Source: Desulfovirgula sp. (lineage in GTDB: Bacteria; Bacillota; Desulfotomaculia; Desulfotomaculales; Nap2-2B). From it: a stretch of DNA of 38,609 nt. The notes below the pieces were generated by a model, which was not told the origin of the DNA, searched no databases, and saw nothing but the letters and a program-made list of their open reading frames with translations. The position numbers were made by a program, and so were the translations under genes. Shown here piece by piece: positions 8,666-38,609 of the stretch; the stretch's first letter is position 1, and every line of letters starts with the position of its first letter. Location of the stretch: assembly GCA_020725585.1 (NCBI GenBank), contig DYES01000012.1:1-38609 (forward strand), written 5' to 3'.

Positions 8666-8694
8666 TGGACAAGAAGTGAAAATTCTACTATAAT
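8666..8694 (+). promoter_or_regulatory. Promoter of the cobalamin-riboswitch operon
   Basis: TGGACA (8666-8671) and a perfect TATAAT (8689-8694) are 17 bases apart. Transcription would start around 8701, just before the riboswitch aptamer. Confidence 0.75.
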
Positions 8695-8719
8695 TGGCTT
8701 AACCAGACAACTGAATAAC

Positions 8720-8875
8720 TTAAAAATGGGTGAGGGAAGTCAGTGCAAATCTGACACGGTCCCGCCACTGTAATTGGGGAGCCAACCTGCATTTGGCCAC
8801 TGGGGATAAGAAAACCTGGGAAGGCGCAGGGAAGAGCGAAGATCCATAAGTCAGGAAACCTGCCCATTTTTCATC
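8720..8875 (+). ncRNA. Cobalamin (AdoCbl/B12) riboswitch aptamer
   Basis: The conserved blocks of the cobalamin family appear in order: the AGTCAGTGCAAATCTGACACGG stretch beginning near 8738 (read in two parts, GTGCAAATC and ACGGTCCCGCCACTGTA), the GCCACTG paired strand, GGGAAGGCG-type sequence near 8818, and GAAGATCCATAAGTCAGG followed by AAACCTGCC near 8840-8864. Downstream complementary loops (CACCGCATGACCTACGGCGG) probably form the kissing-loop part. The aptamer ends about 50 bases before a terminator, so the switch most likely works by premature termination when cobalamin is bound. It controls the six genes to 18672. Confidence 0.93.
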
Positions 8876-8920
8876 ACCGCATGACCTACGGCGGATAGGG
8901 AGGTGATTGAGTAAAGCGCC

Positions 8921-8957
8921 AAAAACCTCTGCATCTACCGGGCAGGGGTTTTTATTT
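8921..8957 (+). terminator. Riboswitch expression-platform terminator
   Basis: AAAACCTCTGC pairs with GCAGGGGTTTT (one G-T wobble) across an eight-base loop and continues into a T-rich tract. It sits between the aptamer and the ribosome site of the first operon gene at 9009, the expected place for a ligand-dependent terminator. Confidence 0.8.
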
Positions 8958-9008
8958 TGGATAAGCCGGGGGCAAAGAAATCACTTTTGAGGAAGGGAGG
9001 ATATTTTC

Positions 9009-12000
9009 TTGTTTAGGGTTAAATCATTGAAATATTTATCACTTTTTATTGCCTTGTTTTTTGTTTTGTCCCTCTTAGTGCAATTGGCGGCCCCTTTAAA
9101 TTTTATCTGGGCGGATGAACAAACCATCGTCGCTGCTGAAATAGTCGAAAAAACTGTAGAATTTATAAAAGAAAAATTTGATGAAGGAGAAAAATTAGAC
9201 GCCTATGCTGCTTATGTGCTCACATTGGCTCAAGAAGATTTAGGCACATGGAGCAGGAGCAGCAGTTTGAAGGCGGATATTCAAAACCTGAAAGAAGAAA
9301 TTAATGCTCTTGCCGATCTTTTGGGCAATGGGGTAACTATGGTTGATTATCTTGTAGCCACTCAAAACGCCGACGGCAGCTTCGGCCCCTACGCTACGTT
9401 AGGAGGAACGGCAGAAGGGCTTTTTGCTCTAGCAATGACCAGAAATGATTTAACTGTTGGAGAATCAGTTTACGAAAAAGCCCACGCCGCAATTAATAAG
9501 GCAATAATTAGTATTAAGGACAAGTACCAGAGAGGGCAGCTGGCTTACATAGCGGATCAATATGAATTAAATTACCGGGCAATCGAGGCTCTCTGTGCCT
9601 CAGGAGAAGATTTATCTGTTTCAGATTGGGTTTATCAGGGAAAAAGCCTGCGTGATTGCGTCGTGGAAGCGGCAATTGCTGCAGCAGAATCCTCTTCAGT
9701 TATAGATGCCGTTTACCTTGCCAAGCATTTAATCGCTCTTCACGCGGTCGATCCGGGCAACCCGGCGCTTGGTACCCTGGCCCAGAGAATTGTTGCACTC
9801 CGAGATGGTGATGGTGCCTTTCAGACGGTAAATTATTCCGGCGAGCGAGTAAAGGCAAACATTTACGGAGAAGTTCTGGTTTTGTACGCGCTCGGCAAAA
9901 CAGGACATATCCAGAACTTAGCTATTAATGATCAGGTAGCGGTTTTAAACTACATTAACCAATATTGTTTTGAGCAGAAGGATATGTTTGGTGACTTTAT
10001 AGGCTATGGTTGGGGAGGGTTTGGAAGTGCGGAGACGGATACGACCGCACAGGTAATTACTGCTCTGCGTTATTTCGATAACAGTGTGGGCGCAGCAGTT
10101 TATGTTGACGGCGGGACTGGTTACCTGCAGAGCGCTCAAGACCCGGATACGGCGGCAATTACACATCCGTGGGACAGCTCTTACGCGACGGCCGATACGC
10201 TAATTGCTTTAAAAACAATTGGCATGCCCTGGGACAGCGGTAATTGGGTTAAAAATTCCCGGACAAAAACAATCGCGCAGTGCCTGCTTGCCGTTAATGA
10301 GTGGGGTGACACCGAACGGGTAGAAAAACTGGTCGGTTTACTGATTGGAAGACAAAAAACAGAAAGCCCTGGTGCAGGCTCCTTTGACAACAGTGTATAT
10401 ACCGATATGCTGGCCTTTATTTCCCTGGGCGAGGCCGGGAAACTTAGTGGACTTCCCAGTGCGGACGGGGCCAAAAACTATATTTTATCCAAGCAAAATA
10501 TAAGCGTTGCCGAAGAGAGCTACGGCGCCTGGGGAGAAAGCTTTGGCGGCGTTTTCTATCCCGATTTTCTTTCCACCTGCCAGGCAATCAGAGCCCTTTC
10601 CTACTTTGGCCAGGATGAGGAAGTAAAAAACGCCATTGAGCGGGGCATTTCCTACCTGAAAACTTTACAAAAAGAAGATGGTGGGGTTTACTATAAAACA
10701 GAGTATTGGTCCGATGATCCAGTGGTTGACAATGCGGAACTAATTATCACTCTTTACGCAATCGGCGAGGATCCTTTGAGCGAAAGCTGGACGATAGTAG
10801 GTAATCGGGAACTCAATCCCGCCACTTATTTACTGGAGAAAACCTTTAACCCGGACGGTAGCCTTGCCGGTGTGGGGAATATCTTCACGGCCACCCAGGC
10901 TCTTTACGCCGCTTTATTATTGCCGGGAACAGTTACAGGAAAAATTGGTGAAAATGGAAACACTGGAACAGAGCGGCCCGATCAGACCACGGTGGGTGTT
11001 GCAGTAGTAGGAAAAGACGATGAAATTTTATATGGCCCCGGCTACGTAACATTATCTGACGAAAGTCAGTGGGGTACCACCGTGCTTGGCGCCCTGCACG
11101 CGACGGGTCTTCCCTATACCTTCAAGCAATATTCCTTTGGCGTGCTGGTCACTTCCATTGCCGGACAGACCAACGAAGGCATGCAGGGCTGGATGTACAA
11201 AATAAACACTCGGTCAGGCGGCGCAGCCGACCGGGAAGAAGTAAAAGATGGAGACAAAGTCATCTGGTGGTACAGCAAAGACATTAATTCCCCCGGTCCA
11301 AGCTGGGAAGAGCTAGTCCAGCTTGCTGCCTCTGGAAGTATGAAAACTGAACAGAAAGCTTTAGAAGTCCCCGAACGGTTCAAGCCTTCTCCGGAGGCCG
11401 AACAGGCCCTTTCAAAACTTGCCGAGCTTTTAGGTTTAAAGCAGGATACGGTTGAGCTCAGCGCTTTGGAGAAGGCGCCGAAGGCGACCGTCGTGGTGGG
11501 GAACGAAAAAATGCCCTCCTGGCAGCAGAGAATTGCCCGGAAAAAAGAATTCTTGGGCAGTTTAGTCGCGCTCAAGCAAAAGGTTTTGGCAAAAGAAGGG
11601 GCCGTAATGTCCGATCCTCAGGGCAGGCTTGTTTTGATTATTCCGCCGGGCGCGTTGAATCAAGATGCGGACATTACTGCCGAAGAACTTGCTTTTGCTG
11701 AGGACGGCGCGCGTGCAGGAAAGGGCGGCAGCGAAAAGGAGGCGACTTCCGGCAGCGCTGAAAGCAGCGAGCTCTGGGCGGGCGCACCGGAAGGGTTCCG
11801 CCGCATTACGCCCGTTTACCGTTTTGGCCCGGAGGGAACCAGTTTTGCCGAACCAGTGACCGTGTATTTGAGGGTAGACATCCCCTTTGTGGTCAGGCCG
11901 GAGAATCTGTACCTGGCCGGGTACAACAAAGCGGAAAAGAAGTGGGTGGCCGTGCCGGCGGTGGTGGATGCGGGCGCCGGGCAGGTCCTGGCCAGACTAT

Positions 12001-12578
12001 CCCACTTCTCGGAGTACGCCGTTTTTGCCCGCGTACCGAAAAAATCTTTTGCCGATCTCTCTTCCGCCGCCTACGACTGGGCGCGGGAGGCCGTGGAAAC
12101 TTTGGCCGGAGCCGGCATCGTGGGAGGCGTGGACGAAAAGCGCTTTGAACCGGAGCGGCCAATTACCCGCGCCGAACTGGTCAGCCTTTTGGCCAGGGCC
12201 TTGAGTTTGCCGGCGGCAGACGCTCCCGCGTCTTTCCGGGACGTGCGCGAAGGAGACTGGTACGCCGGGTGCGTGGCCTCCGCCGCGGCGGCAGGGTTGG
12301 TCAAGGGGTACGAAGACGGCACTTTCCGTCCCGGTGCGCCAATCAGCAGAGAGGAACTCATCGCCATTCTGGTAAGGGTGCTGGGCCTGCCCGCGGGCGC
12401 ATCGGAAAAAATTAATTTTGTCGATGCCGGGGAAGTTTCCTCCTGGGCTCAGGGGAGCATGGCGGCGGCGGTGGCCGAAGGATTGGTGGCCGGCTACCCC
12501 GACCAAACCATCCGGCCGCGTGCGCTGACCAGCAGGGTCCAAGGCGCCGTTTTTCTGGCCAGGCTGCTGGAAAAATAG
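9009..12578 (+). CDS. SLH-anchored surface protein with alpha/alpha-barrel repeats and transcobalamin-like (DUF4430) domain
   Basis: This 1189-residue exported protein starts at a TTG with GGAAGGGAGG eight bases upstream. Residues 1-36 are a signal peptide. About 40-640 hold prenyltransferase/squalene-cyclase-type helical repeats, with turns such as QNADGSFG (119), DGDGAF (265), WGGFGSAETDTTAQVITAL (334), GSFDNSVYTDMLAF (453) and QKEDGGVYY (554). About 658-760 is a DUF4430 domain (VLGALHATGLPY, GWMYKINT, DGDKVIWWY). About 870-1010 resembles a ZU5-like beta module (IIPPGAL, HFSEYAVF). About 1013-1189 are three SLH domains that attach to the cell wall. Barrel plus DUF4430 is the domain pair of animal intrinsic factor and transcobalamin. 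With a cobalamin riboswitch in front, I infer surface cobalamin/corrinoid binding. Alternatively it is a general surface adhesin. Confidence 0.82.
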   Translation: MFRVKSLKYLSLFIALFFVLSLLVQLAAPLNFIWADEQTIVAAEIVEKTVEFIKEKFDEGEKLDAYAAYVLTLAQEDLGTWSRSSSLKADIQNLKEEINALADLLGNGVTMVDYLVATQNADGSFGPYATLGGTAEGLFALAMTRNDLTVGESVYEKAHAAINKAIISIKDKYQRGQLAYIADQYELNYRAIEALCASGEDLSVSDWVYQGKSLRDCVVEAAIAAAESSSVIDAVYLAKHLIALHAVDPGNPALGTLAQRIVALRDGDGAFQTVNYSGERVKANIYGEVLVLYALGKTGHIQNLAINDQVAVLNYINQYCFEQKDMFGDFIGYGWGGFGSAETDTTAQVITALRYFDNSVGAAVYVDGGTGYLQSAQDPDTAAITHPWDSSYATADTLIALKTIGMPWDSGNWVKNSRTKTIAQCLLAVNEWGDTERVEKLVGLLIGRQKTESPGAGSFDNSVYTDMLAFISLGEAGKLSGLPSADGAKNYILSKQNISVAEESYGAWGESFGGVFYPDFLSTCQAIRALSYFGQDEEVKNAIERGISYLKTLQKEDGGVYYKTEYWSDDPVVDNAELIITLYAIGEDPLSESWTIVGNRELNPATYLLEKTFNPDGSLAGVGNIFTATQALYAALLLPGTVTGKIGENGNTGTERPDQTTVGVAVVGKDDEILYGPGYVTLSDESQWGTTVLGALHATGLPYTFKQYSFGVLVTSIAGQTNEGMQGWMYKINTRSGGAADREEVKDGDKVIWWYSKDINSPGPSWEELVQLAASGSMKTEQKALEVPERFKPSPEAEQALSKLAELLGLKQDTVELSALEKAPKATVVVGNEKMPSWQQRIARKKEFLGSLVALKQKVLAKEGAVMSDPQGRLVLIIPPGALNQDADITAEELAFAEDGARAGKGGSEKEATSGSAESSELWAGAPEGFRRITPVYRFGPEGTSFAEPVTVYLRVDIPFVVRPENLYLAGYNKAEKKWVAVPAVVDAGAGQVLARLSHFSEYAVFARVPKKSFADLSSAAYDWAREAVETLAGAGIVGGVDEKRFEPERPITRAELVSLLARALSLPAADAPASFRDVREGDWYAGCVASAAAAGLVKGYEDGTFRPGAPISREELIAILVRVLGLPAGASEKINFVDAGEVSSWAQGSMAAAVAEGLVAGYPDQTIRPRALTSRVQGAVFLARLLEK

Positions 12579-12666
12579 TGCCCAGCAAAATTTTAAAAAA
12601 AGAGACTGGCGAAGCGCGGATGGGGAAAATTGCCCCTTCGCGCTACGCCCCCCGGAGGGATTATCT

Positions 12667-13890
12667 TTGCCGAAAAGGTTGCCAATTGTCCTGGTGGTGC
12701 TCTTTTTAATCGCCGCCTTACTGGGGCCGGTTATTTACGCAAATACCAGGAGCGCCCAGGAGAACCGCAGCACGGCCGTTTCCCCCCAGGCGCAGGACGC
12801 TGCACCCCGGGTGGACAAGGGCGCCCCTCCGGATGCCGCCGACCCGGGCGCTGCTCCCCAAACCGGGCAAAAGGCCGGGGAAAACTCTTCGGAAGCTGCG
12901 GGAAGCGGAGATTTGAAAGTTGAAGAAGAAAAGGCAGGAAAAAGGGCAGGGGAAGCGGAAGAAAACAAAGCAGGGGACGACGGGACGGGCCGGAAAGCGC
13001 CCAGCACCACGGCTGCGGCCAAACCCGGCAACGGGGTGTCCCTGTGGGTAACTACAGATTTTGGACGCAATCACGTATGTATTTTAAACGTTCCCTGCCA
13101 GGAAGGAGATTCGGTTCTCGATCTCCTGAAAAGGCACTTGCGGGTGGGGACGACTTACGGGGGAGGCTTTGTCAACGAGATTGAAGGCATCGCCTCCGGT
13201 TATACCGGCCTGCCGGGAAAGGAGCGCAAAAAGCGCGACTGGTTTTATTGGGTAAACGGCGGGCAGCCTTCTTTTGGCGCGGCTCAATATAAGGTTTCCG
13301 GAGGGGATGTAGTCTGGTGGGATTACCACGACTGGAGCGCGACCATGTATGCGCCGGCCATCGTCGGCGCCTATCCGGAACCGTTTTTGCACGGTTTTGC
13401 CGGAGGGGGAAAGGGAGCGAAAATACTTTTTAGCCCCGGGTCGGATCGACTGGCCCAGGAGTTAAAAATAGGGATGGCCGCTTTGGGGATCGCGCCTGTC
13501 TCTGAAGAGGCCCTCAGGGAAGGCGCCATTACGGGCAGAACGTGTCCGGTGGTTGTTTTGGGAACCTGGGAAGAGATCGGTGAGAACAGTACCGTCGCCG
13601 CTCTTTTTGCCCGGGGAGTGAAAAGCGGCCTTTATGCGCGTTTTTCCGGCAGCGAGATCGAGCTGCTTTCGTCGCAAGGGACGGTGGTGGAAAAACGCGG
13701 TAAAGGGAGCGGCGTTGTCCTGGCCACCGGCACGGGGGACAACGTAAACCCCGTCTGGATTGTCGCCGGCGTGGATGAAGAAGGGGTGCGGCGGGCGGTT
13801 AAGTTACTAAGCAATCATCCGCTGAAAATAAAATTTTATTTCGGCGCCGCCGTCGACGCGGAAAAATTGACCCGCCTGCCGGTGGAATAA
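12667..13890 (+). CDS. Membrane-anchored transcobalamin-like (DUF4430) protein
   Basis: This protein has 407 residues. A TTG start with GGAGGG seven bases upstream is followed by a hydrophobic anchor (about 5-25). A long charged, Ala/Gly/Glu-rich linker follows (about 27-118), as expected for crossing the cell wall. A DUF4430 domain occupies about 120-230 (VLDLLKRHLRVG, DWFYWVNGG, GGDVVWWDYHDW). A C-terminal alpha/beta-looking region (230-407, with GAKILFSPGSDRLAQEL and VNPVWIVAGVDEEGVRRA) is not one I can name. The first domain has the fold known from the beta domain of transcobalamin. In the operon it could receive ligand from the SLH-anchored protein and hold it near the ECF transporter; this is inference. 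Confidence 0.75.
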   Translation: MPKRLPIVLVVLFLIAALLGPVIYANTRSAQENRSTAVSPQAQDAAPRVDKGAPPDAADPGAAPQTGQKAGENSSEAAGSGDLKVEEEKAGKRAGEAEENKAGDDGTGRKAPSTTAAAKPGNGVSLWVTTDFGRNHVCILNVPCQEGDSVLDLLKRHLRVGTTYGGGFVNEIEGIASGYTGLPGKERKKRDWFYWVNGGQPSFGAAQYKVSGGDVVWWDYHDWSATMYAPAIVGAYPEPFLHGFAGGGKGAKILFSPGSDRLAQELKIGMAALGIAPVSEEALREGAITGRTCPVVVLGTWEEIGENSTVAALFARGVKSGLYARFSGSEIELLSSQGTVVEKRGKGSGVVLATGTGDNVNPVWIVAGVDEEGVRRAVKLLSNHPLKIKFYFGAAVDAEKLTRLPVE

Positions 13891-13912
13891 AGCAAGCGAG
13901 GTGTTTGGACTT

Positions 13913-15325
13913 ATGCTTTTTTGGGAAAGGTCACGGGCCGGGAAAAATTTTTTCCGGGTCATCCTGGCGGTTTTGATTTTGTTGCTGGCGAGCCGCCCGG
14001 GTTATGGCTTAGCCCAAACTGGTGCCGTAGATGGGTCGGCTCTCAAGCGCGCCGCGGATTACCTTTATCGCCTGGAAAAAACCAGGGGAGTTTTGACTCC
14101 CTGGAGCTATATCGCCCTGGCGGCCGCCGGGGGAAATTTAGCCGGCACCTCCGTGGAGAAGGCCTGCCAGGCGCTCTTCAACGAATTAAAAAACGGCGCC
14201 ACCACCAGCTACGCCACGCTCATTTTAACCATTTTGAGCGCGGGCGGCGACCCTTTCAATTATCAGGGGCAAAACCTCGTGCAAAAACTCCAGGAGGCGC
14301 AGCTGCCCAGCGGCAAATTTGCCGATAACGTCATAAACGGCGGGGAAGAGCTGGTCAACGCGCACATCTGGGCGATGCTCGCCCTGCAGGCTGCGGGCGC
14401 CTCTATCCCCGACAAAGAAAAAGCACTGGCCTGGTTAGCGGCCCGGCAGCATGCGGACGGGGGCTTCCACTGGTACGCGGGGGAAAAAACAACAGCCGAC
14501 GTGGACTCTACGGGCATGGCTTTAATGGCCCTGGGAGCGCTGGGCGAGAAAGAAGACAGCCCGTCCGTTTCCAAGGCGCTTGCCTACTTGCAGGCTGTAC
14601 AAAACGATAACGGCGGATTTTCGTCCTGGGGAGTGGCCAACCCGGAGTCCTGCGCAGTGGTTATTCAGGGATTAATTTCCGTGGGGGCGCAGCCAACCGA
14701 TCCCCGGTGGCAAAGAACAGAGGGCAATCTAGTCACCGCCCTGCAAAAATTCCAGCTGGCCGACGGTTCTTTCGCACACGTAAAAGGCGGGGGCGCTGAC
14801 GAAATGGCCACCCAGCAGGCGCTGCTGGCGCTTTCGGCGCTAAATCATGGCCGCACCATCTACGATCTGTGGGGTGAAAAAAACAAGCTCAAAGGCAGGC
14901 CGGAGGCGGGCAAGGCGGAAGAGCGGGGAAGGCAAGTAGCCCAGTTCGTGATTGATCAGAAGCGTTACCTGGTTAACCTGGCCGGCGGGCAGCAAGCTGT
15001 CGATACTGATGCGGCACCGTTTATTGAGGACGGACGAACCTTTGTTCCTATCCGTTACCTGGCGCAGGCCCTGGGGATTTCCGGGGAAGGTATTCAATGG
15101 ACCGAAGCTACCCAAACAGTAACTTTAAAAAAAGGCGCGACTACCCTTGACCTGACGGTGGGCAAAAATATTTTTTACCTCAACGGGGCCCCGCAAACGA
15201 TTGACGTCGCCCCGGTGGTGAAAGAGGGGCGTACCTACCTTCCCGCCCGCTACGTGGCCGAAGCATTTGGCTACGCAGTAAGCTGGGACCCCGCCGGTCG
15301 GACCGTAAACATTTTAAGCAACTAG
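13913..15325 (+). CDS. Exported alpha/alpha-barrel protein with copper-amine-oxidase-N-like domain
   Basis: This protein has 470 residues. A signal or anchor segment (about 14-33) is followed by a single helical-repeat barrel (about 43-320) of the type in prenyltransferases and the alpha domain of intrinsic factor. Telling segments are ARQHADGGFHW..., DVDSTGMALMALGAL and VQNDNGGFSSWG. About 345-470 is a copper amine oxidase N-terminal-like domain with two typical repeats (VPIRYLAQALG and LPARYVAEAFG), a common Firmicute surface module thought to bind cell envelope. The ATG at 13913 follows GAGGTG; a GTG at 13901 is open but would overlap its own ribosome site. It has the barrel but no DUF4430 domain, the reverse of the preceding gene, so the two may form a split transcobalamin-like pair. 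Confidence 0.75.
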   Translation: MLFWERSRAGKNFFRVILAVLILLLASRPGYGLAQTGAVDGSALKRAADYLYRLEKTRGVLTPWSYIALAAAGGNLAGTSVEKACQALFNELKNGATTSYATLILTILSAGGDPFNYQGQNLVQKLQEAQLPSGKFADNVINGGEELVNAHIWAMLALQAAGASIPDKEKALAWLAARQHADGGFHWYAGEKTTADVDSTGMALMALGALGEKEDSPSVSKALAYLQAVQNDNGGFSSWGVANPESCAVVIQGLISVGAQPTDPRWQRTEGNLVTALQKFQLADGSFAHVKGGGADEMATQQALLALSALNHGRTIYDLWGEKNKLKGRPEAGKAEERGRQVAQFVIDQKRYLVNLAGGQQAVDTDAAPFIEDGRTFVPIRYLAQALGISGEGIQWTEATQTVTLKKGATTLDLTVGKNIFYLNGAPQTIDVAPVVKEGRTYLPARYVAEAFGYAVSWDPAGRTVNILSN

Positions 15326-15342
15326 AAGGGGATGTTTTACCG

Positions 15343-16272
15343 TTGTCTTACGGGTTTTTTTACCGGCCGAAGGGAGTTTTTTTGCAAACCTTACATCCGT
15401 CGGCGGCGCTGGTTTACCTGGGCGTACTTTTTTTGCTCACCCTGTTCTTTACCCACCCTTTGTACCTGCTGGCCATTTTCCTTGCTCTCGGCCTGGTCGC
15501 CTGGGCCGCGGAAGCTTTAGACGCCTGGGAAACCTGTTTAAAAGTGGGCCTGGGGATGGTTGTTTTGATCATGCTGATCAACCCCCTGGCGGTGCGCGCC
15601 GGCACAAGCATCATCTGGTCCGGGCCTGAAGTCCCGGTACTGGGCAGGCTGACCATCTCGCTGGAAAGCATCTGCTACGGAGCGGCCATGGGCCTGCGCC
15701 TGCTCAACGTGATCAGCGTTTTTTGCCTGTACAACTGCCTTGTTCATCCCGACAGGGCGCTCGGTATATTTTCCCGCTTCGCACCTAAATCGGCGTTGAT
15801 CATTTCCCTGGCTACCCGGATGCTTCCCACCTTAGCCCGAGAGTTAAGTGAAATAAAAGAAGCGCAGCAGACAAGAGGCGTGGATTTTGGGAGCGGAAGC
15901 TGGCGCGAGAGACTAAAAAGATACTCCACAATTTTCAATGTCCTGCTGTTTACCTCCATGGAAGGATCTCTGCAAGTCGCCGAGGCCATGCATGCCCGCG
16001 CCCTGGGGAGCGGACCGCGCACTTGCTACCAGCGCGAACCCTTTCGCCCCCGCGACGCAATCTGCCTTTTTGCCGGCGGAGGTGCGCTGGCGGCCGCCCT
16101 TTGCGCTAAATATACGGGGGCAGGCGATTATCACTATTATCCTCAACTGGGGCAGTTATTCAGCGGCTTTACAGATTTAATTTTCCTTGCGGCCGTGCTG
16201 GCCGGGGTTCTCGCGCCGGTCGTTTTGAGCTGGGGGTGGCAGAAGTGTTCCTCTTTAAGGTCGAAAATTTAA
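15343..16272 (+). CDS. ecfT: ECF transporter transmembrane component EcfT
   Basis: This is the scaffold subunit of an energy-coupling factor vitamin importer. It is a 309-residue membrane protein with several hydrophobic segments in the N-terminal third and at the C-terminus. The cytoplasmic coupling region has two Ala-Arg-Gly-type motifs, here EAQQTRG (about 171-177) and AMHARALG (about 214-221), which dock on the two ATPase domains. Both are slight variants of the usual ARG. The TTG at 15343 is 12 bases after GAAGGGG. The 3' end overlaps the next gene by 37 bases, so translation is coupled. Confidence 0.88.
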   Translation: MSYGFFYRPKGVFLQTLHPSAALVYLGVLFLLTLFFTHPLYLLAIFLALGLVAWAAEALDAWETCLKVGLGMVVLIMLINPLAVRAGTSIIWSGPEVPVLGRLTISLESICYGAAMGLRLLNVISVFCLYNCLVHPDRALGIFSRFAPKSALIISLATRMLPTLARELSEIKEAQQTRGVDFGSGSWRERLKRYSTIFNVLLFTSMEGSLQVAEAMHARALGSGPRTCYQREPFRPRDAICLFAGGGALAAALCAKYTGAGDYHYYPQLGQLFSGFTDLIFLAAVLAGVLAPVVLSWGWQKCSSLRSKI

Positions 16273-17963
16273 CCTACTATTATCCTGAAAGCGAAAGGCC
16301 CGCGCTCAACAACATTAATTTGACCGTGAAAGAAGGCGAGTTTTTGCTGGTCATCGGCGGTTCGGGCTCGGGCAAGTCTTCGCTGGCCAGGGCCCTGGCC
16401 GGTTTAGTACCCGACTTTTACGGAGGCAAATTTGGAGGGAAAGTTTTCTTTAACAGCCACGACTTGCGAAAAATGGACCGCCGTAATTTAGGAAAAGAAA
16501 TCGGAATTGTCTTTCAGGACCCTGAAAAGCAGCTGGTCATGCTTTCGGTAGAGGCCGAAATAGCCTTTGGCCTGGAAAATCTCGGCCTGCCCCCAGAAGA
16601 CATGCTTCGCCGCGTTGCGGAGGTAATGGGCTTCCTTAATCTCACGCCCGTAAAGAGCGAATTTACCACCAACCTTTCCGGCGGCCAGAAGCAAAAGCTG
16701 GCTCTGGCCGCCATTCTTGCCATGCAGCCGCGGGTGCTGATTTTAGATGAGCCCACTTCCCAGCTGGACCCGATGTCCGCGGAAGAGCTGCTCAATCTCG
16801 TCAAGCGCCTGAACGAAGAAATGGGTTACACAATTATTCTCATCGAACAGCGCCTGGAAAGATGCTTTCACCTGGCCGACCGCATCCTGGTTATGGAAAA
16901 CGGACGGATCGTTAAAGAAGGCCCGGCTGAAGAAGTGGCCAGGTGGGAAGTGGAAAATTCTCTTCCTTTTGTGCCGCCGGTGGCCAGGTTTTTTGCTTCC
17001 TTGCAACAGCCGCGCCTCCCCCTTACCATCAAGGAAGGGCGGCAGGCGCTCGGGCGGTATTTCTCAGTGTCCGGTCCACAAGGGGGGCACCAGCCATCAA
17101 GGCAGACGCTGCCCAACTTGCTGCGTAAGCCCGTGAAAAAGAAGAAAGTGCTCCTTGAGCCGGAGCCGGCAAGCCAGTTAAAAGATGTCTGGTTCACCTA
17201 CCCGAACGGCCGGGAGGCCTTGCGCGGCATAAACCTTTCGGTGAAAAAGAGCGAATTTGTAGTTGTTTTGGGCGAAAATGCCGCCGGTAAGTCAACCCTG
17301 CTCAAACAGATGGCCGGGCTTTTGCAGCCAGGGCGCGGGAGCGTGGTGGTGGCGGGAAAAGACACCCGGAAAATTTCCTCCCGGGAGCTGGCGCGCGAGG
17401 TGGGCTATCTGGCGCAAAATCCAAACAATTACCTTTTCTGCGACACCGTAGAGCAAGAACTGCTTTTTACGCTTAACAACCTGGGGCTCTCGTGCGAAGA
17501 CAGGGCGGTGGAAATTCTTCTGGAAAGGCTGGACATTGCCCGTTACCGGAAAGTTAACCCCCGCGATCTGAGTAGCGGCGAGCGCCAGCGGGTGGCTCTG
17601 GCGGCGGTGCTGGTTGCCAGGCCGAAAATCTTGCTTCTGGACGAACCCACCCGGGGCCTCGATTATCGCTTAAAAAACGAACTCGGGCTTCTTTTGCGGG
17701 AATTAGCCCAGGAGGGGCTGAGCGTAGTGCTGGTTACTCATGATGTGGAATTTTGCGCCGAACACGCCGCCAGGGTAATTATCATGTTCGACGGAAGGAT
17801 AATTGCGGATGGTCCGCCAGAAGAAATCCTGAACGGCTCCCTTTTTTATTCGCCGCAAATGAACAGATTGTTTAAGGGGTATGCACAAGGCGTGTTGACT
17901 GTCCAGGACGGCATCCGGGCGCTTGCCTTAAATGGGGATTTTCCGTATGTGGTGCAGGCATAA
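16236..17963 (+). CDS. ecfA: ECF transporter ATPase, fused A-A' (two ABC domains)
   Basis: This 575-residue protein carries both ATPase domains of an ECF module. Domain 1 has Walker A GGSGSGKSS (about 41-49), signature LSGGQKQ (about 147) and Walker B VLILDEPTSQ (about 168). Domain 2 has Walker A GENAAGKST (about 345), signature LSSGERQ (about 445) and Walker B ILLLDEPTRG (about 466). A linker with proline and basic residues joins them. All catalytic glutamates are present, so both sites should work. The GTG at 16236 lies inside ecfT; a GTG three codons later is an alternative. Most ECF systems use separate A and A' genes, so the fusion is a notable variant. Confidence 0.92.
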   Translation: MAEVFLFKVENLTYYYPESERPALNNINLTVKEGEFLLVIGGSGSGKSSLARALAGLVPDFYGGKFGGKVFFNSHDLRKMDRRNLGKEIGIVFQDPEKQLVMLSVEAEIAFGLENLGLPPEDMLRRVAEVMGFLNLTPVKSEFTTNLSGGQKQKLALAAILAMQPRVLILDEPTSQLDPMSAEELLNLVKRLNEEMGYTIILIEQRLERCFHLADRILVMENGRIVKEGPAEEVARWEVENSLPFVPPVARFFASLQQPRLPLTIKEGRQALGRYFSVSGPQGGHQPSRQTLPNLLRKPVKKKKVLLEPEPASQLKDVWFTYPNGREALRGINLSVKKSEFVVVLGENAAGKSTLLKQMAGLLQPGRGSVVVAGKDTRKISSRELAREVGYLAQNPNNYLFCDTVEQELLFTLNNLGLSCEDRAVEILLERLDIARYRKVNPRDLSSGERQRVALAAVLVARPKILLLDEPTRGLDYRLKNELGLLLRELAQEGLSVVLVTHDVEFCAEHAARVIIMFDGRIIADGPPEEILNGSLFYSPQMNRLFKGYAQGVLTVQDGIRALALNGDFPYVVQA

Positions 17964-18672
17964 GTTATTTTTAAAATTGATGCGTTTTTTTCTTTTCTTT
18001 TGCGCAGGCGCAATATTTATCTACGTTTTTGTTTGCAAAGAGGCCGCCGCGGAACAGAACTGGGGTCTCTTTTCAATCTTCCTGATCTTGCTGGTAATAC
18101 TATTATTTTACTGGGTTTTTGAACGAAGCGCGGCAACTTCCCGGGAAATCGCCGTTATCGCCGTCTTAAGCAGCATCGCGGGAATTGCGCGCCTGCCCTT
18201 TGCTGCTTTGCCAAACGTGCAGCCGACCACTTTTTTGATCATTATTTCCGGTTTTGTATTTGGCCCGCGCGTTGGTTTTATGGTGGGCACTACTGCCCTG
18301 GTAGTATCTAATTTTTTTCTTGGTCACGGACCGTGGACTCCCTGGCAGATGCTCGCCTGGGGACTGGCCGGAAGCTCCGCGGGATTAATGGGTATTTTGC
18401 ATCCCCGCCTGGGGCACAAGGGAATGACCATTTTTAATTTTCTTTGGGGTTATCTTTTTGGGTGGATCATGAATTTATGGTTTTGGCTTTCTTTTGTTTA
18501 CCCCTTGAACCCGAAGACATTTTTGCTGGCCTGCCTGGCCAGCTTCTGGCTGGATACTCTGCACGCCCTTGGGAATGCAGTTTTTTACATTTTATTGGGG
18601 CGGGATATAGTAAAGGTTCTTACCCGCTTTCGTCAAAAAATGGAAATCAGCTTTTTACTCCCTGCAAAGTAA
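17932..18672 (+). CDS. ECF transporter S component, probable cobalamin/corrinoid binder
   Basis: This is a 246-residue membrane protein with about six hydrophobic segments. It carries the S-component pattern in which a small soluble-looking loop follows the third segment: PNVQPTTFLIIISGFVFGPRVGF, then NFFLGHGPWTPWQMLAWGLAG. The S component binds the substrate. The riboswitch and partner genes point to cobalamin, which fits the CbrT-type group predicted for B12-regulated ECF systems; this identity is inference. The start is uncertain: the ATG at 17932 overlaps ecfA by 32 bases, the ATG at 17947 is equally open, and neither has a clear ribosome site, which suggests translational coupling. It is the last gene of the operon; no clear terminator was seen after it. 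Confidence 0.8.
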   Translation: MGIFRMWCRHKLFLKLMRFFLFFCAGAIFIYVFVCKEAAAEQNWGLFSIFLILLVILLFYWVFERSAATSREIAVIAVLSSIAGIARLPFAALPNVQPTTFLIIISGFVFGPRVGFMVGTTALVVSNFFLGHGPWTPWQMLAWGLAGSSAGLMGILHPRLGHKGMTIFNFLWGYLFGWIMNLWFWLSFVYPLNPKTFLLACLASFWLDTLHALGNAVFYILLGRDIVKVLTRFRQKMEISFLLPAK

Positions 18673-19105: not shown

Positions 19106-19181
<76 letters not shown>

Positions 19182-19198
19182 TTATGGCTTACAATTTA

Positions 19199-19227
19199 AT
19201 TATAAAATAGCGACTCATCCCTGTCAA
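19199..19227 (-). promoter_or_regulatory. Consensus sigma-A promoter of tRNA-Trp
   Basis: Read on the minus strand, TTGACA (19227-19222) and TATAAT (19204-19199) are both perfect and exactly 17 bases apart. The -10 element is 18 bases upstream of the tRNA 5' end. Confidence 0.9.
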
Positions 19228-32666: not shown

Positions 32667-34022
32667 CTAATCTTTATAATTCTTTTCCTTTCGCTTCTTT
32701 AGAAACTCCAGCGCTACTTCCGGGAAAATGGCCACGGAAAGAACGTCCTCTTCCTGCGTCAGGTAGGGCTCCGCCAGTTTGCGGGCCTCCTCTAAACCCG
32801 GCGGGAGCAGGTCTGCGGGCCGGCAGTTGATCGGCTCTTCGTCGCCGATGATCATCTTTTTGGCCTCCTCGTTGATGGGTCCCGGCGGCCGGCCGTAATA
32901 CCCGCGCACGTAATTAATGATCTCGTTGCTGTTGATTACCCAGCGCCCGAATAATACGTTAAAAACAGCCTGGATGCCGACAATCTGGCTGGTGGGCGTG
33001 ACCAGTGGAGGGTAGCCCAGATCTGCCCGGGTGCGCGGCAGCTCCTCCAAAACTTCCGCCAGTCTGTCTAAAGCGCCCTGTTCCCTAAGCTGAGAGATGA
33101 AATTAGACATCATCCCCCCTGGGATCTGATACATGAGCACGTTGACATCGACACTCTTTGGGGAAAGATCGAATTCCGCATAGTACTTTCTCCGCACTTC
33201 GGCAAAATATTCGGCGATTTCCGAGAGTAACTTCAAATCGAAGCCCGGATCATAAGGGGTTCCTTTTAGCGTCTCCACCATCGGCTCTACCGCCGGCTGA
33301 GAAGTCTGCAGGGCCATTGAAGAAATGGCGCAATCAATGATATCCACGCCGGCGTCGATGGCTCTTAAGTAGCACATCGAGGCCATCCCGCTAGTATAGT
33401 GGCAGTGCAGCTGGACGGGTATTTTCAGGTTTTCTTTCCACGCTTTAATAATCTCATACGCCGGCTGGGGTGCCAGTATGCCGGCCATATCTTTCAAGCA
33501 GATGGAGTCAGCCCCCATCTCTTCCAGGGTTTTGGCAAGATTTACAAAATACTCGACATTGTGCACCGGGCTGATGGTATAGCAGGCCACGGCCTGGACG
33601 TGGGCGCCCTCCTTTTTCGCTACCTCCATGGCCTTTTGCATGTTCCGGACATCATTTAAAGCGTCAAAAATACGGAAAATATCAAGCCCGTTATAAACTG
33701 TCTTCTTTATAAACTCGGTTAACACGTCGTCCGGGTAGTTCTTGTAGCCAACGATGTTCTGTCCTCTTAAAAGCATTTGAAGAGGGGTTTTGCAGTGCTT
33801 TCTGATTGTGCGCAGCCTTTCCCACGGATCTTCATCCAAAAAGCGCAAGCAAGTGTCGAAGGTAGCCCCTCCCCAAACTTCCAAAGAATGGTAACCAACC
33901 TGATCTATTTTCTCCAGTATGGGAATCATGTGTTCCGTGCGCATCCTGGTTGCCAACAGCGACTGGTGACCGTCTCGCAGGGTGGTGTCTGTGATTTTGA
34001 TCGGTCGCCTGGTCTCAGACAT
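32667..34022 (-). CDS. Carboxyltransferase 5S-type subunit (pyruvate/oxaloacetate; OadA/PycB-like)
   Basis: This 451-residue protein is the biotin-dependent carboxyltransferase acting on the pyruvate/oxaloacetate side. The TIM-barrel metal site is visible in TDTTLRDGHQSLLATRM (11-27), the carbamylated-Lys segment CLKDMAG (around 177) and HCHYTSGM (around 205-212). It lacks the C-terminal biotinyl domain of OadA-type proteins (no MKM motif), so it needs a separate carrier. In the propionate-oxidation pathway it would take oxaloacetate to pyruvate while carboxylating biotin for propionyl-CoA. It is the last gene of the minus-strand operon; its ribosome site is GGAGG just upstream of the ATG at 34022. 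Confidence 0.88.
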   Translation of the reverse strand: MSETRRPIKITDTTLRDGHQSLLATRMRTEHMIPILEKIDQVGYHSLEVWGGATFDTCLRFLDEDPWERLRTIRKHCKTPLQMLLRGQNIVGYKNYPDDVLTEFIKKTVYNGLDIFRIFDALNDVRNMQKAMEVAKKEGAHVQAVACYTISPVHNVEYFVNLAKTLEEMGADSICLKDMAGILAPQPAYEIIKAWKENLKIPVQLHCHYTSGMASMCYLRAIDAGVDIIDCAISSMALQTSQPAVEPMVETLKGTPYDPGFDLKLLSEIAEYFAEVRRKYYAEFDLSPKSVDVNVLMYQIPGGMMSNFISQLREQGALDRLAEVLEELPRTRADLGYPPLVTPTSQIVGIQAVFNVLFGRWVINSNEIINYVRGYYGRPPGPINEEAKKMIIGDEEPINCRPADLLPPGLEEARKLAEPYLTQEEDVLSVAIFPEVALEFLKKRKEKNYKD

Positions 34023-34107
34023 TTTTACCCCTCCTTACGAAAATTTCCATTTGAAAAAACTTAGCACTAAAAAATTTAGCAAACTTTAACCCCAACCTGG
34101 CATCAGC

Positions 34108-35109
<1,002 letters not shown>

Positions 35110-36639
35110 TTACACCGGAAAGTTCCCGTGTTTCTTTTGCGGCCTGGTTTCTCTTTTGCCGGCCAGCGCTTTTAAAGCCTCAATAATTTTTTTACGGGTG
35201 TCCGCCGGGTCAATCACGTCGTCCACGTAGCCCCGGGCGCAGGAAATGTAAGGGTTGGCGAACTTCGCGCGGTATTCCGCAATCAGTTTTTCCCTGACTT
35301 CTTGCGGATTTTCCGCTTTGGCAATTTCATTGCGGTAGATTATGTTTACTGCCCCTTCCGGTCCCATAACCGCCACTTCTGCCGTCGGCCAGGCGTAGGA
35401 CACGTCCGCCCGCAGGGAGCTGCCGCACATGGCGATATAGGCGCCTCCGTAAGCCTTGCGGAGGATAATGGTTACCTTGGGCACGGTTGCTTCCGAATAG
35501 GCGTAAAGTATCTTCGCACCGTGGCGAATAATCCCCCCGTACTCCTGCTCCGTTCCCGGCAGATAACCTGGAACGTCAGTAAAAGTAACGAGGGGCAGGT
35601 TGAAGCAATCGCAAAAACGAACGAAGCGGGCAATCTTATCGGACGCGTTGATGTCCAAACAGCCGGCCAAATAATTGGGCTGGTTGGCCACAATACCGAC
35701 TGCCTGGCCGGCAAAACGGGCAAAACCCACCACCGCGTTTACGGCGTAAAGGGGCTGCACTTCAAAGAAATCCCCGCCGTCGACGACGAGCTTAATCACG
35801 TCCTTAATATCGTAAGCAAGGTAAGATTCTGTAGGGACTATGTTCCTTAATTCAAGCGGGTCGCCGGGAGGTTCCTGGGGCGCAAACAAAGGAGGTTTCT
35901 CCAGGTAATTGGAAGGCAGGTACGACAACAGCTTTTTAATCATGGCCAGGCATTCTTCTTCGTCTTTAGCTATGAAATGGGCCACCCCGCTTTTTTGATT
36001 GTGCGTGTATGCCCCGCCCAGCTCTTCCATGCTTACCTCCTCACCGGTGACCGCCTTGATCACCTGCGGACCGGTAATAAACATCTGGCTGATTTTCTCC
36101 ACCATAAAAATAAAATCCGTTAAGGCCGGTGAATAAACGGCCCCTCCCGCACACGGGCCCATAATTACCGATATTTGCGGGATTACCCCGGAAGCCAGGG
36201 TATTCCGGAAGAAAATATTTCCGTACCCGTCCAGGGCGTCTACGCCTTCTTGAATCCGGGCGCCTCCGGAGTCGTTGAGGCCGATTACCGGGGCCCCGTT
36301 TTTCATGGCCAGATCTAAAACCTTGCAGATTTTTTCGGCGTGGATTTTTCCCAAAGAACCGCCGGCGACCGTGAAATCCTGGGCAAAAACGTAGACCAGG
36401 CGGCCGTCGATGGTGCCGTAGCCGGTAACCACTCCTTCCCCGGGGTATTGCAGGTTATCGAGATCAGGGCTGCCGGCAAAGGTGTTGATCTCTACGAAGG
36501 AATCCGGATCGAACAGCAGCGAAATCCGCTCCCTGGCCGTTTTTTTCCCCGCTTCGTGCTGTTTTTCTATTCTTTTCGGGCCGCCGCCGGCGATGATCTT
36601 ACTGCGGTATTGGGCCAGTTGCGCAAGTTTTTCTTGCAC
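35110..36639 (-). CDS. Acyl-CoA carboxyltransferase, 12S-type (methylmalonyl-CoA/propionyl-CoA)
   Basis: This 509-residue crotonase-fold carboxyltransferase moves the carboxyl group between methylmalonyl-CoA and biotin. Family motifs are GGGPKRIEKQHEAGKKTARERI, the N-terminal acyl-CoA half with DSGGARIQEGVDAL and MGPCAGGAVYSPAL, and the C-terminal biotin half with DVPGYLPG..QEYGGIIRHGAK and KAYGGAYIAM. The frame opens further upstream inside the epimerase gene, but GGAGG at 36656-36652 and the family N-terminus (QEKLAQLAQYRSKI) place the start at the GTG at 36639. The related decarboxylase subunit is called MmdA, but the neighbours favour transcarboxylation to pyruvate. It starts 21 bases after the epimerase stop. 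Confidence 0.9.
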   Translation of the reverse strand: MQEKLAQLAQYRSKIIAGGGPKRIEKQHEAGKKTARERISLLFDPDSFVEINTFAGSPDLDNLQYPGEGVVTGYGTIDGRLVYVFAQDFTVAGGSLGKIHAEKICKVLDLAMKNGAPVIGLNDSGGARIQEGVDALDGYGNIFFRNTLASGVIPQISVIMGPCAGGAVYSPALTDFIFMVEKISQMFITGPQVIKAVTGEEVSMEELGGAYTHNQKSGVAHFIAKDEEECLAMIKKLLSYLPSNYLEKPPLFAPQEPPGDPLELRNIVPTESYLAYDIKDVIKLVVDGGDFFEVQPLYAVNAVVGFARFAGQAVGIVANQPNYLAGCLDINASDKIARFVRFCDCFNLPLVTFTDVPGYLPGTEQEYGGIIRHGAKILYAYSEATVPKVTIILRKAYGGAYIAMCGSSLRADVSYAWPTAEVAVMGPEGAVNIIYRNEIAKAENPQEVREKLIAEYRAKFANPYISCARGYVDDVIDPADTRKKIIEALKALAGKRETRPQKKHGNFPV

Positions 36640-36659
36640 TAGTGAAAACAACCTCCTTT

Positions 36660-37070
36660 TTATCTGTGTTCCTTTCGTTCGCAAAGCTCAATCAAGGTTC
36701 CGTAAGTGGACTTGGGATGCAGAAAGGCAATTTTGGCGCCGCCCGCACCGTAGCGCGGCTTCTCGTCAATTAAACGGATGCCCTTATTCTTGAGTTCCGC
36801 GAGCTTTTCTTCCAGATTTTCCACGCGAAAGGCAATGTGCTGGATCCCTTCGCCGTTTTTTTCAATAAATCTGGCGATGGGGCCGTCCGGGGAGGTGGAT
36901 TCGAGCAATTCTACCTCGCTGTCCCCCGTAGGCAAAAAGGCAACCCTTACCTTTTGCTCTTCGACCACCTCCGTACCCGTCGCTTTGAGGCCCAGAATTT
37001 CTTCGTAAAACTTCATGGCCGCCGTCAGGTCCTTTACGGCAATGCCGATATGGTCTATTTTTTTAACCAT
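36660..37070 (-). CDS. mce: Methylmalonyl-CoA epimerase
   Basis: It interconverts (R)- and (S)-methylmalonyl-CoA. This is a 136-residue vicinal-oxygen-chelate protein with two beta-alpha-beta-beta-beta units. Metal-site residues are His7 in KIDHIGIAV, His78 in GIQHIAFRV and Glu128 in GTLIELCE. The ATG at 37070 has a GGTGGGA site on the minus strand; the frame upstream of it (to 37109) has no ribosome site. It sits between the B12-binding mutase subunit and the 12S carboxyltransferase, in pathway order. Confidence 0.95.
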
Positions 37071-37130
37071 CGTCCCACCTGCCTTTAAAGATAGAAATAG
37101 AAGAATCAAAAAATAAAAATCTAGAGATCG

Positions 37131-37541
37131 TTATTTCGAAACAACCTTTTCTTTAATAAAATCTATAACCGTAGAAGTAAGCGTCCCCGGGCCAAATATT
37201 TCTGTGATGCCGGCATCTTTTAAGACGGGAACATCTTCGTCCGGGATAATCCCTCCCCCCAGAACCAAAATATCGCCTGCCCCTTCTTTGCGCAACCCTT
37301 CCACCACCGCCGGAAAAAGATGCAAGTGCGCGCCCGAAAGGCTGCTTAAAGCGACCACCTGCACGTCTTCCTGCAGGGCTGCCTGAACAATCTGTTCAGG
37401 GGTCTGCCGCAGGCCTGTGTAAATTACTTCCATGCCTGCGTCGCGCAAGGCCTGAGCAATCACTTTGGCTCCCCGGTCGTGGCCGTCGAGGCCGGGCTTA
37501 GCCACTAAAACGCGGATGGGCCGGTCACTTTTTTCGCTCAT
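37131..37541 (-). CDS. Methylmalonyl-CoA mutase, B12-binding small subunit
   Basis: This is a separate cobalamin-binding domain of 136 residues. The cobalt-ligating motif DGHDRG (19-24) gives His21 as the lower axial ligand. The later SLSGAH and [10 protein letters not shown] segments hold the nucleotide tail of cobalamin. In most bacteria this domain is fused to the mutase large subunit; the split form is seen in Pelotomaculum-type and archaeal mutases. The ATG at 37541 follows a strong GGAGGTGGGG site. It is in the same operon, about 90 bases after the large subunit. Confidence 0.95.
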
Positions 37542-37628
37542 TACTTACCCCACCTCCTAAAAGATTTATGCTGGCGGCTCTTTTTAGTGCTTTTGTCAAT
37601 TAGCCCCCTTTGGAATACCCCTGCAGGG

Positions 37629-38609
37629 CTAAAAAACTATGTTTTGCTTGTACTCGCCAAAAACTCCCCGCAGCACGTCACAGATTTCTCCTAAGGTGGC
37701 GTATTCCCTTACGGCTTCGATAAAAAGAGGCATCAAGTTCTGGCTCGTGGCCGCGGCCTCGCGCAAGTCGCTGAGGATTTTGGCCACCCTGGCGTTGTCC
37801 CTTTCGCTCTTCAGTTTGTTTAGCCTGGCTATTTGCCGCTCGGCCACGGCGGGGTCTACCTTCAAAAGACCGGTCGGGCGCTTTTCGGGCATCTGGAATT
37901 TATTTAACCCGATCACAACCTTGCTTCCGCTTTCTATTTCTTTCTGGTAGGTATAGGAACTGTTTTGAATCTCCTTTTGCATATATTCAATCGCTTCCGG
38001 CGCCCCGCCCAGCTCGTCAATTTTTTGTATGTAAGCCATGGCCCGCTCTTCAATTTCGTTGGTGAGTTTTTCAACGAAATAAGATCCGGCCAGCGGATCG
38101 ACAGTATCGGCGACGCCAATTTCGTAGCCGATTACCTGCTGAGTGCGCAGGGCCAGCAAAACAGATTGTTCACTGGGCAGGGCCAGCGCTTCGTCCCAGG
38201 AATTAGTGTGCAATGATTGCGTCCCGCCTAAAACGGCGCTCAAGGCCTGGAAGGCCACCCGCATGATGTTTACCTGGGGCTGCTGGGCGGTAAGCGTGCA
38301 CCCGGCCGTTTGCGTATGGAAACGAAGCATTTGAGAACGCGGATTTTTGGCCCCGAACCGGTCGCGCATGATTTTGGCCCACAGGCGGCGTGCGGCGCGG
38401 AATTTGGCTATTTCTTCAAAGAAGTTCAGATGGGCATTGAAGAAAAAGGACAGCCGGGGTGCAAACTCGTCGACGTTGAGCCCCGCGTTGACCGCGGCCT
38501 GGACGTACGCTATCCCATCGGCCAGCGTAAAGGCCACCTCCTGTACCGCGGTAGAACCGGCTTCCCGGATGTGATAACCGCTGATGCTAATCGTGTTCCA
38601 GTTAGGCAC
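37629..38609 (-). CDS. Methylmalonyl-CoA mutase large (catalytic) subunit, 3' part
   Basis: The gene runs off the window, so only about 326 C-terminal codons are present. The frame continues open to the last base; the GTG there is an internal valine codon, not a start. Mutase motifs are [52 protein letters not shown] (substrate and cofactor contacts) and [14 protein letters not shown]. The end at [10 protein letters not shown] lacks a B12 domain, which is supplied by the next gene. It carries out the radical rearrangement of methylmalonyl-CoA to succinyl-CoA, or the reverse. Confidence 0.95.

Follow-up and report, generated by a model that had tools for sequence, protein, structure and literature searches.

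We analysed a 38,609-nucleotide stretch of contig DYES01000012.1 from the Desulfovirgula sp. assembly GCA_020725585.1 (hereafter the window), in which positions 8666–18672 hold an operon that joins exported proteins with toroid and DUF4430 domains to an energy-coupling factor (ECF) importer. It very probably encodes surface proteins with the build of the human B12 carriers of blood and stomach, together with a membrane pump. Its features, all on the forward strand, are as follows (the evidence is given in brackets).

8666..8694, +, sigma-70-type promoter, TGGACA-17-TATAAT (consensus match at 11 of 12 positions)
8711..8881, +, cobalamin riboswitch aptamer RF00174 (105.9 bits, cut-off 31.5, E = 1e-25)
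8919..8960, +, U-tailed hairpin, probable terminator of the riboswitch expression platform (fold)
9009..12578, +, P1, large toroid–DUF4430–SLH protein and putative surface captor, 1189 residues (Pfam, AlphaFold2 model, Foldseek, conservation)
12667..13890, +, P2, small DUF4430 protein, 407 residues (Pfam DUF4430 at 51.9 bits, model, Foldseek, alignment)
13901..15325, +, P3, exported solo toroid with a C-terminal Cu_amine_oxidN1 domain, 474 residues (Pfam; signal peptide by eye)
15343..16272, +, EcfT (CbiQ family) transmembrane coupling protein (Pfam CbiQ at 50 bits, cut-off 25)
16236..17963, +, fused double ECF ATPase (two Pfam ABC_tran domains; matches CbiO)
17932..18672, +, S component of CbrT type, with an N-terminal extension containing two hydrophobic segments (Pfam ECF_trnsprt, PDB profile)

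An initial annotation had placed a promoter, a cobalamin aptamer, a terminator and six tightly packed genes in this region, and we confirmed that a promoter, a riboswitch, a hairpin and six packed genes are present. Two promoter-like sites were seen in the 501 bases scanned, against 0.5 expected. The RF00174 match scores above the gathering threshold and spans model positions 1–189, which is the whole model. Three such matches were found in the 2.37 Mb genome, and simple arithmetic from this number gives a chance of ∼0.002 that one would fall within 2.6 kb upstream of the operon on the correct strand. Given this value, and the recurrence of the arrangement within the order and beyond, the promoter–riboswitch–operon arrangement is more than chance. 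The terminator fared less well: a U-tailed hairpin does fold within positions 8905–8962 (−16.7 kcal/mol, z = −1.88), but a consensus terminator scan found nothing at this site and 10 of 200 shuffled sequences were equally stable, making it the weakest part of the observation. The six open reading frames, starting at 9009, 12667, 13901, 15343, 16236 and 17932, are spaced by 88, 10 and 17 nt at the first three junctions and overlap by 37 and 32 nt at the last two; start codons were set mechanically and protein lengths are approximate.

Exported proteins and importer

P1 comprises a signal peptide (assigned by eye), two toroids (approximately residues 42–325 and 343–640), a DUF4430 domain (residues 659–757), a middle region and three SLH domains, where the split of the helices into two toroids is our reading of the secondary structure of the model. 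Pfam searches returned SQHop_cyclase_C (25.3 bits, below the cut-off of 26.1), DUF4430 (35.1 bits) and the three SLH domains, with PF14478 above its cut-off in both P1 and P2. The AlphaFold2 model of P1 residues 1–770 has a mean pLDDT of 90.4 and displays a beta-grasp hairpin insert, with a helix at residues 692–698 followed by strands 703–708 and 711–717, and then 726–732. To describe conservation we aligned 40 proteins (P1 included), drawn from 54 proteins with a toroid and a DUF4430 domain; the second toroid is kept in 39 rows and DUF4430 in all 40, partly by construction, and the first toroid is kept in just 12. On this basis the first toroid is disfavoured as a core part, and what the P1 relatives have in common comes down to a single toroid with DUF4430, as in transcobalamin. 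Residues 859–891 (window 11583–11681) bear a weak resemblance to ZU5 (14.9 bits, below the cut-off), and ankyrin chains were also reached when the P1 profile was searched against PDB sequences.

P2 is laid out as an N-terminal helix (residues 5–32), a low-confidence linker (∼34–120), the DUF4430 domain (123–222) and a C-terminal domain (∼250–405), and its model has a pLDDT of 80.5. By eye, the alignment displays a lipobox in several P2 relatives, which fits a membrane-side position. The C-terminal part (window 13414–13881) is a domain of ∼155 residues with no Pfam match at E ≤ 0.1, and the same domain type is present in 19 loci of the order set described below. P3 matches Prenyltrans (57.9 bits) and Cu_amine_oxidN1.

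The structural match to human carriers that the initial annotation had anticipated was seen by Foldseek for both the P1 and the P2 model. Transcobalamin, haptocorrin or intrinsic factor account for 15 of the 50 matches listed for the P1 model, with E-values from 5.8e-7 to 1.5e-5. The P2 model matches the beta domain of human transcobalamin (5no0) with an E-value of 8.2e-4 and a TM-score of 0.66 by target length, and the bacterial structure 3u7z with a TM-score of 0.72. Several results weigh against this likeness. The TM-scores of whole P1 to the human carriers are low (0.31–0.35 by target length, root mean square deviation above 20), perhaps owing to the extra toroid and the placement of the domains. 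The best Foldseek E-values belong to other proteins, namely terpene cyclases, which have the same toroid fold, for P1, and BcsB of cellulose synthase for P2. In searches of PDB sequences, no transcobalamin was among the best 60 of 81 matches to the P1 profile and none was found with the DUF4430 profile; the likeness to transcobalamin is therefore seen by fold comparison alone. With two toroids and an SLH anchor, P1 does not belong to the vertebrate transcobalamin/intrinsic factor family proper, which it resembles in fold only.

The remaining three genes encode the importer. EcfT, which passes the Pfam CbiQ cut-off, scores 45 bits against the NCBIfam CbiQ model, below the cut-off of 111.8. The S component alone matches chain 6fnp_A with an E-value of 1.2e-10, and a profile built from 41 relatives matches the same chain at E = 2.1e-25, the sole solved match at E ≤ 1; we take 6fnp to be the ECF-CbrT entry. 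The operon thus combines an S component homologous to CbrT with EcfT and ECF ATPases, in support of the ECF pump inferred in the initial annotation. The match to CbrT runs from position 58 of the profile and residue 5 of the chain onwards, and the two hydrophobic segments of the window protein precede it. Across the alignment columns of window residues 1–68, 33 of the 41 S-component rows have at least 50 residues, with 27–37 in the other eight.

Conservation of the operon

Of the 113 genomes of the order, 62 have DUF4430. Overlaps of contigs with named records suggest that this order lies among Desulfotomaculum, Pelotomaculum, Desulfofundulus and their kin. The order set contains 71 loci, made up of the window and 70 regions from the other 61 DUF4430 genomes (one or two each); two further contigs of the window's own genome that carry riboswitches (L104 and L105) stand outside these counts. 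Named genomes were scanned as well and yielded 76 loci; 31 of these overlap the order set and were left out, and the 45 that were kept bring the survey to 116 loci. The riboswitch covariance model was built from 33 riboswitches found by regular expression in the order loci.

A cobalamin riboswitch lies on the same strand within 2.6 kb upstream in 55 of the 71 order loci, at a median distance of 222 nt, and upstream in 26 of the 28 further named loci whose upstream DNA extends for 1.5 kb or more. The other 17 named loci are outside the latter count, and six of them carry a riboswitch. The further named loci include Moorella, Thermovorax, Thermosediminibacter, Syntrophomonas and Dethiosulfatibacter. 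The initial annotation had called for such a survey, naming a consistent association with another riboswitch as the outcome that would count against it; no homologous operon under another riboswitch class was seen among the relatives' loci, which were searched with the cobalamin model alone. Three features of the sampling limit the weight of these counts: the order loci were picked with a preference for two adjacent DUF4430 matches, the 33 riboswitches necessarily match a model derived from them (none of the 45 further loci contributed to it), and locus counts take no account of kinship.

Sixteen order loci lack a riboswitch under the 2.6-kb rule, nine of which start at a contig end. The seven that do not are L103; L082, L088 and L089, where a riboswitch is found ∼3 kb upstream, ahead of an ATPase gene; and L064, L066 and L068, where the nearest upstream riboswitch is ∼7 kb away. 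At least two tandem cobalamin riboswitches precede one cluster in ten loci (L050, L052, L054, L063, L065, L067, L069, L074, L076 and L083).

We defined a complete operon as a riboswitch, EcfT, ATPase and S component in order on one strand (65 of the 116 loci), and a large DUF4430 gene as a toroid fusion or one of at least 520 residues. Each of the 65 complete operons contains a solo DUF4430 gene (176–468 residues), which immediately precedes EcfT in 47 of them, and 56 contain a toroid–DUF4430 fusion. EcfT was found in 87 of the 99 loci with a solo DUF4430 gene, compared with none of the 17 that have only a large one (10 of these 17 have at least 3 kb of downstream DNA), and no EcfT without a small DUF4430 protein was seen among the 116 loci. 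In six genomes (G043, G045, G075, G078, G081 and G082), the large DUF4430 gene and the solo-DUF4430/ECF genes are on different contigs, and both places carry their own cobalamin riboswitch. A toroid was detected in the unlinked large gene of G043, G045, G075 and G078, while that of G081 and G082 encodes two DUF4430 domains and SLH, with no toroid detected.

Because all loci were picked for DUF4430, the reverse count from the S component matters. We tabulated by hand the S component, at a threshold of at least 100 bits (passed by 61 of the 66 genomes with a match; the other five were left out), against DUF4430 in the 113 genomes, and found both in 57, the S component only in four, DUF4430 only in five and neither in 47. 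Three of the four S-only contigs stop inside the ECF operon; in the fourth genome, G038, the match is weaker (120.7 bits) and the contig is not cut there. Taken together, the counts of EcfT and solo DUF4430 genes, the unlinked large genes and this reverse count indicate that P2-type proteins go with the pump and that the P1-type protein is a detachable captor.

Three loci are recorded here as observations in their own right. In L035 (12824–15646), the ATPase and S component are fused in a 940-residue frame. The record behind L106 bears the title Armatimonadetes bacterium HOT.MB2.58, and the locus overlaps L034 of G079, a genome of the window's genus, which has Desulfotomaculum-like kin in its order; the title looks wrong. 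L180, on a contig titled Methanoculleus, carries a DUF4430 gene with a toroid gene behind it, and no EcfT was seen in its 3.9 kb.

Relation to known systems

The human B12 carriers are soluble proteins with one toroid, and their uptake is receptor-mediated. Transcobalamin, haptocorrin and intrinsic factor share with the operon proteins the order of a toroid followed by a DUF4430 beta-grasp domain and the fold matched by the P1 and P2 models; the proteins described here differ in being wall- or membrane-anchored, and P1 in having a second toroid. A surface B12 captor ahead of an importer is also found in gut Bacteroides, where the lipoprotein is presumably BtuG, although that is a Gram-negative outer-membrane system and we know of no parts that it has in common with this operon. 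Capture of B12 by these surface lipoproteins is described in the available part of the report (PMC6143338).

The initial annotation knew of no described capture system with this architecture. This does not hold, as Burroughs, Balaji, Iyer and Aravind described toroid–DUF4430 surface proteins in low-GC Gram-positive bacteria, including Desulfotomaculum, in 2007, and proposed both B12 scavenging and a transfer of the fold to animals; the available part of their paper also reports a second SLBB paralogue, a CbiO-like ATPase and a CbiQ-like membrane protein in the same operons (PMC1796856). The window operon is of the kind predicted there (PMC1796856). It has a beta-grasp domain with a hairpin after the helix, export and surface anchoring with toroid fusion, and a second paralogue with CbiO-like and CbiQ-like genes in one operon. 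The 'analogue' of the vertebrate carrier proposed in the initial annotation should accordingly read 'homologue', provided that the 2007 paper, as far as its available text goes, is right (PMC1796856). Compared with the SLBB systems of that paper, whose available text is silent on riboswitches and on S components of the CbrT type (PMC1796856), the operon has a double toroid, an SLH anchor and a solo toroid protein, and its genome has corrin-ring genes. To the 2007 picture our survey adds the riboswitch, the CbrT-type S component, the constant small DUF4430 protein, unlinked large DUF4430 genes led by riboswitches, and co-presence with corrin-ring genes. We found no experimental test of B12 binding by a bacterial DUF4430 protein, in a literature search whose coverage is light on subscription journals and which is weak evidence of absence.

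ECF-CbrT of Lactobacillus delbrueckii has been characterised and its crystal structure reported (PMC5997447). The window operon resembles it in its homologous S component, EcfT, ECF ATPases and B12 context. According to the available part of that report, CbrT imports cobinamide as well as cobalamin, the ECF module of L. delbrueckii is common to several S components, and in ECF transporters the membrane S component itself serves as the binding protein (PMC5997447). In the window, by contrast, the operon contains its own module with a fused ATPase pair, the N terminus of the S component is extended by additional segments, and the importer is accompanied by surface proteins.

Proposed function and alternatives

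We consider it highly likely that the operon serves cobalamin or corrinoid capture and ECF import, with ligand binding as a prediction. Capture and import of B12 or a corrinoid are well supported by the regulation, the S component, the fold and the conserved linkage. When coenzyme B12 is scarce, the riboswitch would permit reading of the operon, as in cobalamin-repressed uptake of B12 or related corrinoids. P1, held at the wall by its SLH domains, would capture the corrinoid between its second toroid and DUF4430 in the manner of transcobalamin, and P2, whose single helix and long flexible linker would fix it to the membrane and which is the element bound up most closely with the pump, probably hands the ligand on. 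P3, a toroid without DUF4430, may be an accessory protein that supplies the missing half of P2, and EcfT, the double ATPase and the CbrT-type S component would import the ligand. The analysis shows the regulatory element, the domains, the modelled folds, the gene order and their conservation; we infer that the ligand is bound, in which direction it is handed over, that P2 touches the S component, and what P3 does.

The small DUF4430 gene in all 65 complete operons, the lack of any EcfT without it and the detachable large captor would together fit an ECF importer that has an extracellular substrate-binding protein of its own. In it, the extra N-terminal segments of the S component, which the solved CbrT chain lacks, could dock P2, and P2 with P3 could form a split transcobalamin. 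We put this forward tentatively, as a possibility that falls somewhat short of probable. As a solo toroid is present in just 45 of the 65 complete operons, a split carrier of P2 and P3 was rejected as an obligate arrangement and is kept as a possible one. What is new, and testable, is the constant extracellular DUF4430 partner that the ECF importer seems to have.

The genome itself bears on what is imported. It is a draft of 92 contigs that is 83% complete, and its three RF00174 sites precede this operon, CobS-CobT-CobU, and CbiM-CbiQ-CbiO with a run of corrin-ring genes. Judged from these matches, the cell has corrin-ring and nucleotide-loop genes and a cobalt importer separate from the operon. 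A methylmalonyl-CoA cluster in the window (32670–38609, − strand) contains B12-dependent mutase parts, an epimerase, an MmdA-type carboxyltransferase, malate dehydrogenase and an OadA/PycB-like protein, and looks like propionate metabolism; a B12 enzyme, methylmalonyl-CoA mutase, encoded in the same window as the operon counts for B12 uptake. Weighing against it, the genome carries its own corrin-ring genes and CobS/T/U, and DUF4430 has no link with the absence of CbiC across the order (CbiC in 38 of 62 DUF4430 genomes and 37 of 51 others; p = 0.23), leaving auxotrophy unsupported as the reason for the system. Hosts of transcobalamin-like SLBB proteins are said, in the available part of the 2007 paper, usually to be without key B12 enzymes (PMC1796856), a tendency that this genome does not follow. 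A tRNA-Trp gene (window 19106–19227, − strand) with a perfect TTGACA-17-TATAAT promoter lies convergent to the operon.

The main substrate may instead be a precursor or variant (cobinamide, other cobamides or a lower-ligand base) that is salvaged by a cell with corrin-ring genes of its own, which we judge rather unlikely. The synthesis and cobalt-import genes behind their own riboswitches are in keeping with salvage, as is the cobinamide import reported for CbrT in the available text (PMC5997447). Sequence cannot tell salvage from cobalamin uptake, however; CbrT and the human carriers also take cobalamin, as far as that text goes (PMC5997447), and 24 of the 62 DUF4430 genomes have no CbiC match, for which whole cobamides would be the natural target. 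We consider it improbable that the surface proteins have some other ligand or the wall as their target and are linked to a B12 importer by no more than a shared operon. The toroid is a terpene cyclase fold too, as the top P1 matches attest, the best Foldseek matches of P2 are to BcsB, and a reviewer in 2007 cautioned that B12 may not be the ligand of every member (available part of PMC1796856). Against this, the unlinked large DUF4430 genes of the six genomes have cobalamin riboswitches of their own, and a toroid with a DUF4430-type domain is the pair between which transcobalamin sandwiches B12, according to the same partial source (PMC1796856).

It is very unlikely that the operon encodes a CbiMNQO-like ECF transporter for cobalt or nickel to which surface proteins are attached. 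The CbiQ-family EcfT and CbiO-like ATPases would suit it, and the available text of a regulon study places cobalt transporters under cobalamin riboswitches in many bacteria, alongside B12 transporters (PMC3766115). We rejected it because the S component is not CbiM, having CbrT as its only solved relative found, and because a separate CbiM-CbiQ-CbiO set is present in the genome; the subthreshold NCBIfam CbiQ score of EcfT also speaks against it.

Capture of B12 or a related corrinoid by surface proteins, followed by ECF import, remains our preferred explanation. Gram-positive capture of scarce B12 outside the membrane seems to have been little tested, and it is from bacterial proteins like P1 and P2 that the B12 carriers of animals have been proposed to derive (PMC1796856). 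Besides being compact and under riboswitch control, the module also occurs in cultured species with names, Moorella among them, so that capture, hand-over and import can each be put to the test. Should the small DUF4430 protein indeed deliver the ligand to the S component, the view that ECF transporters do without extracellular binding proteins would have to be revised.

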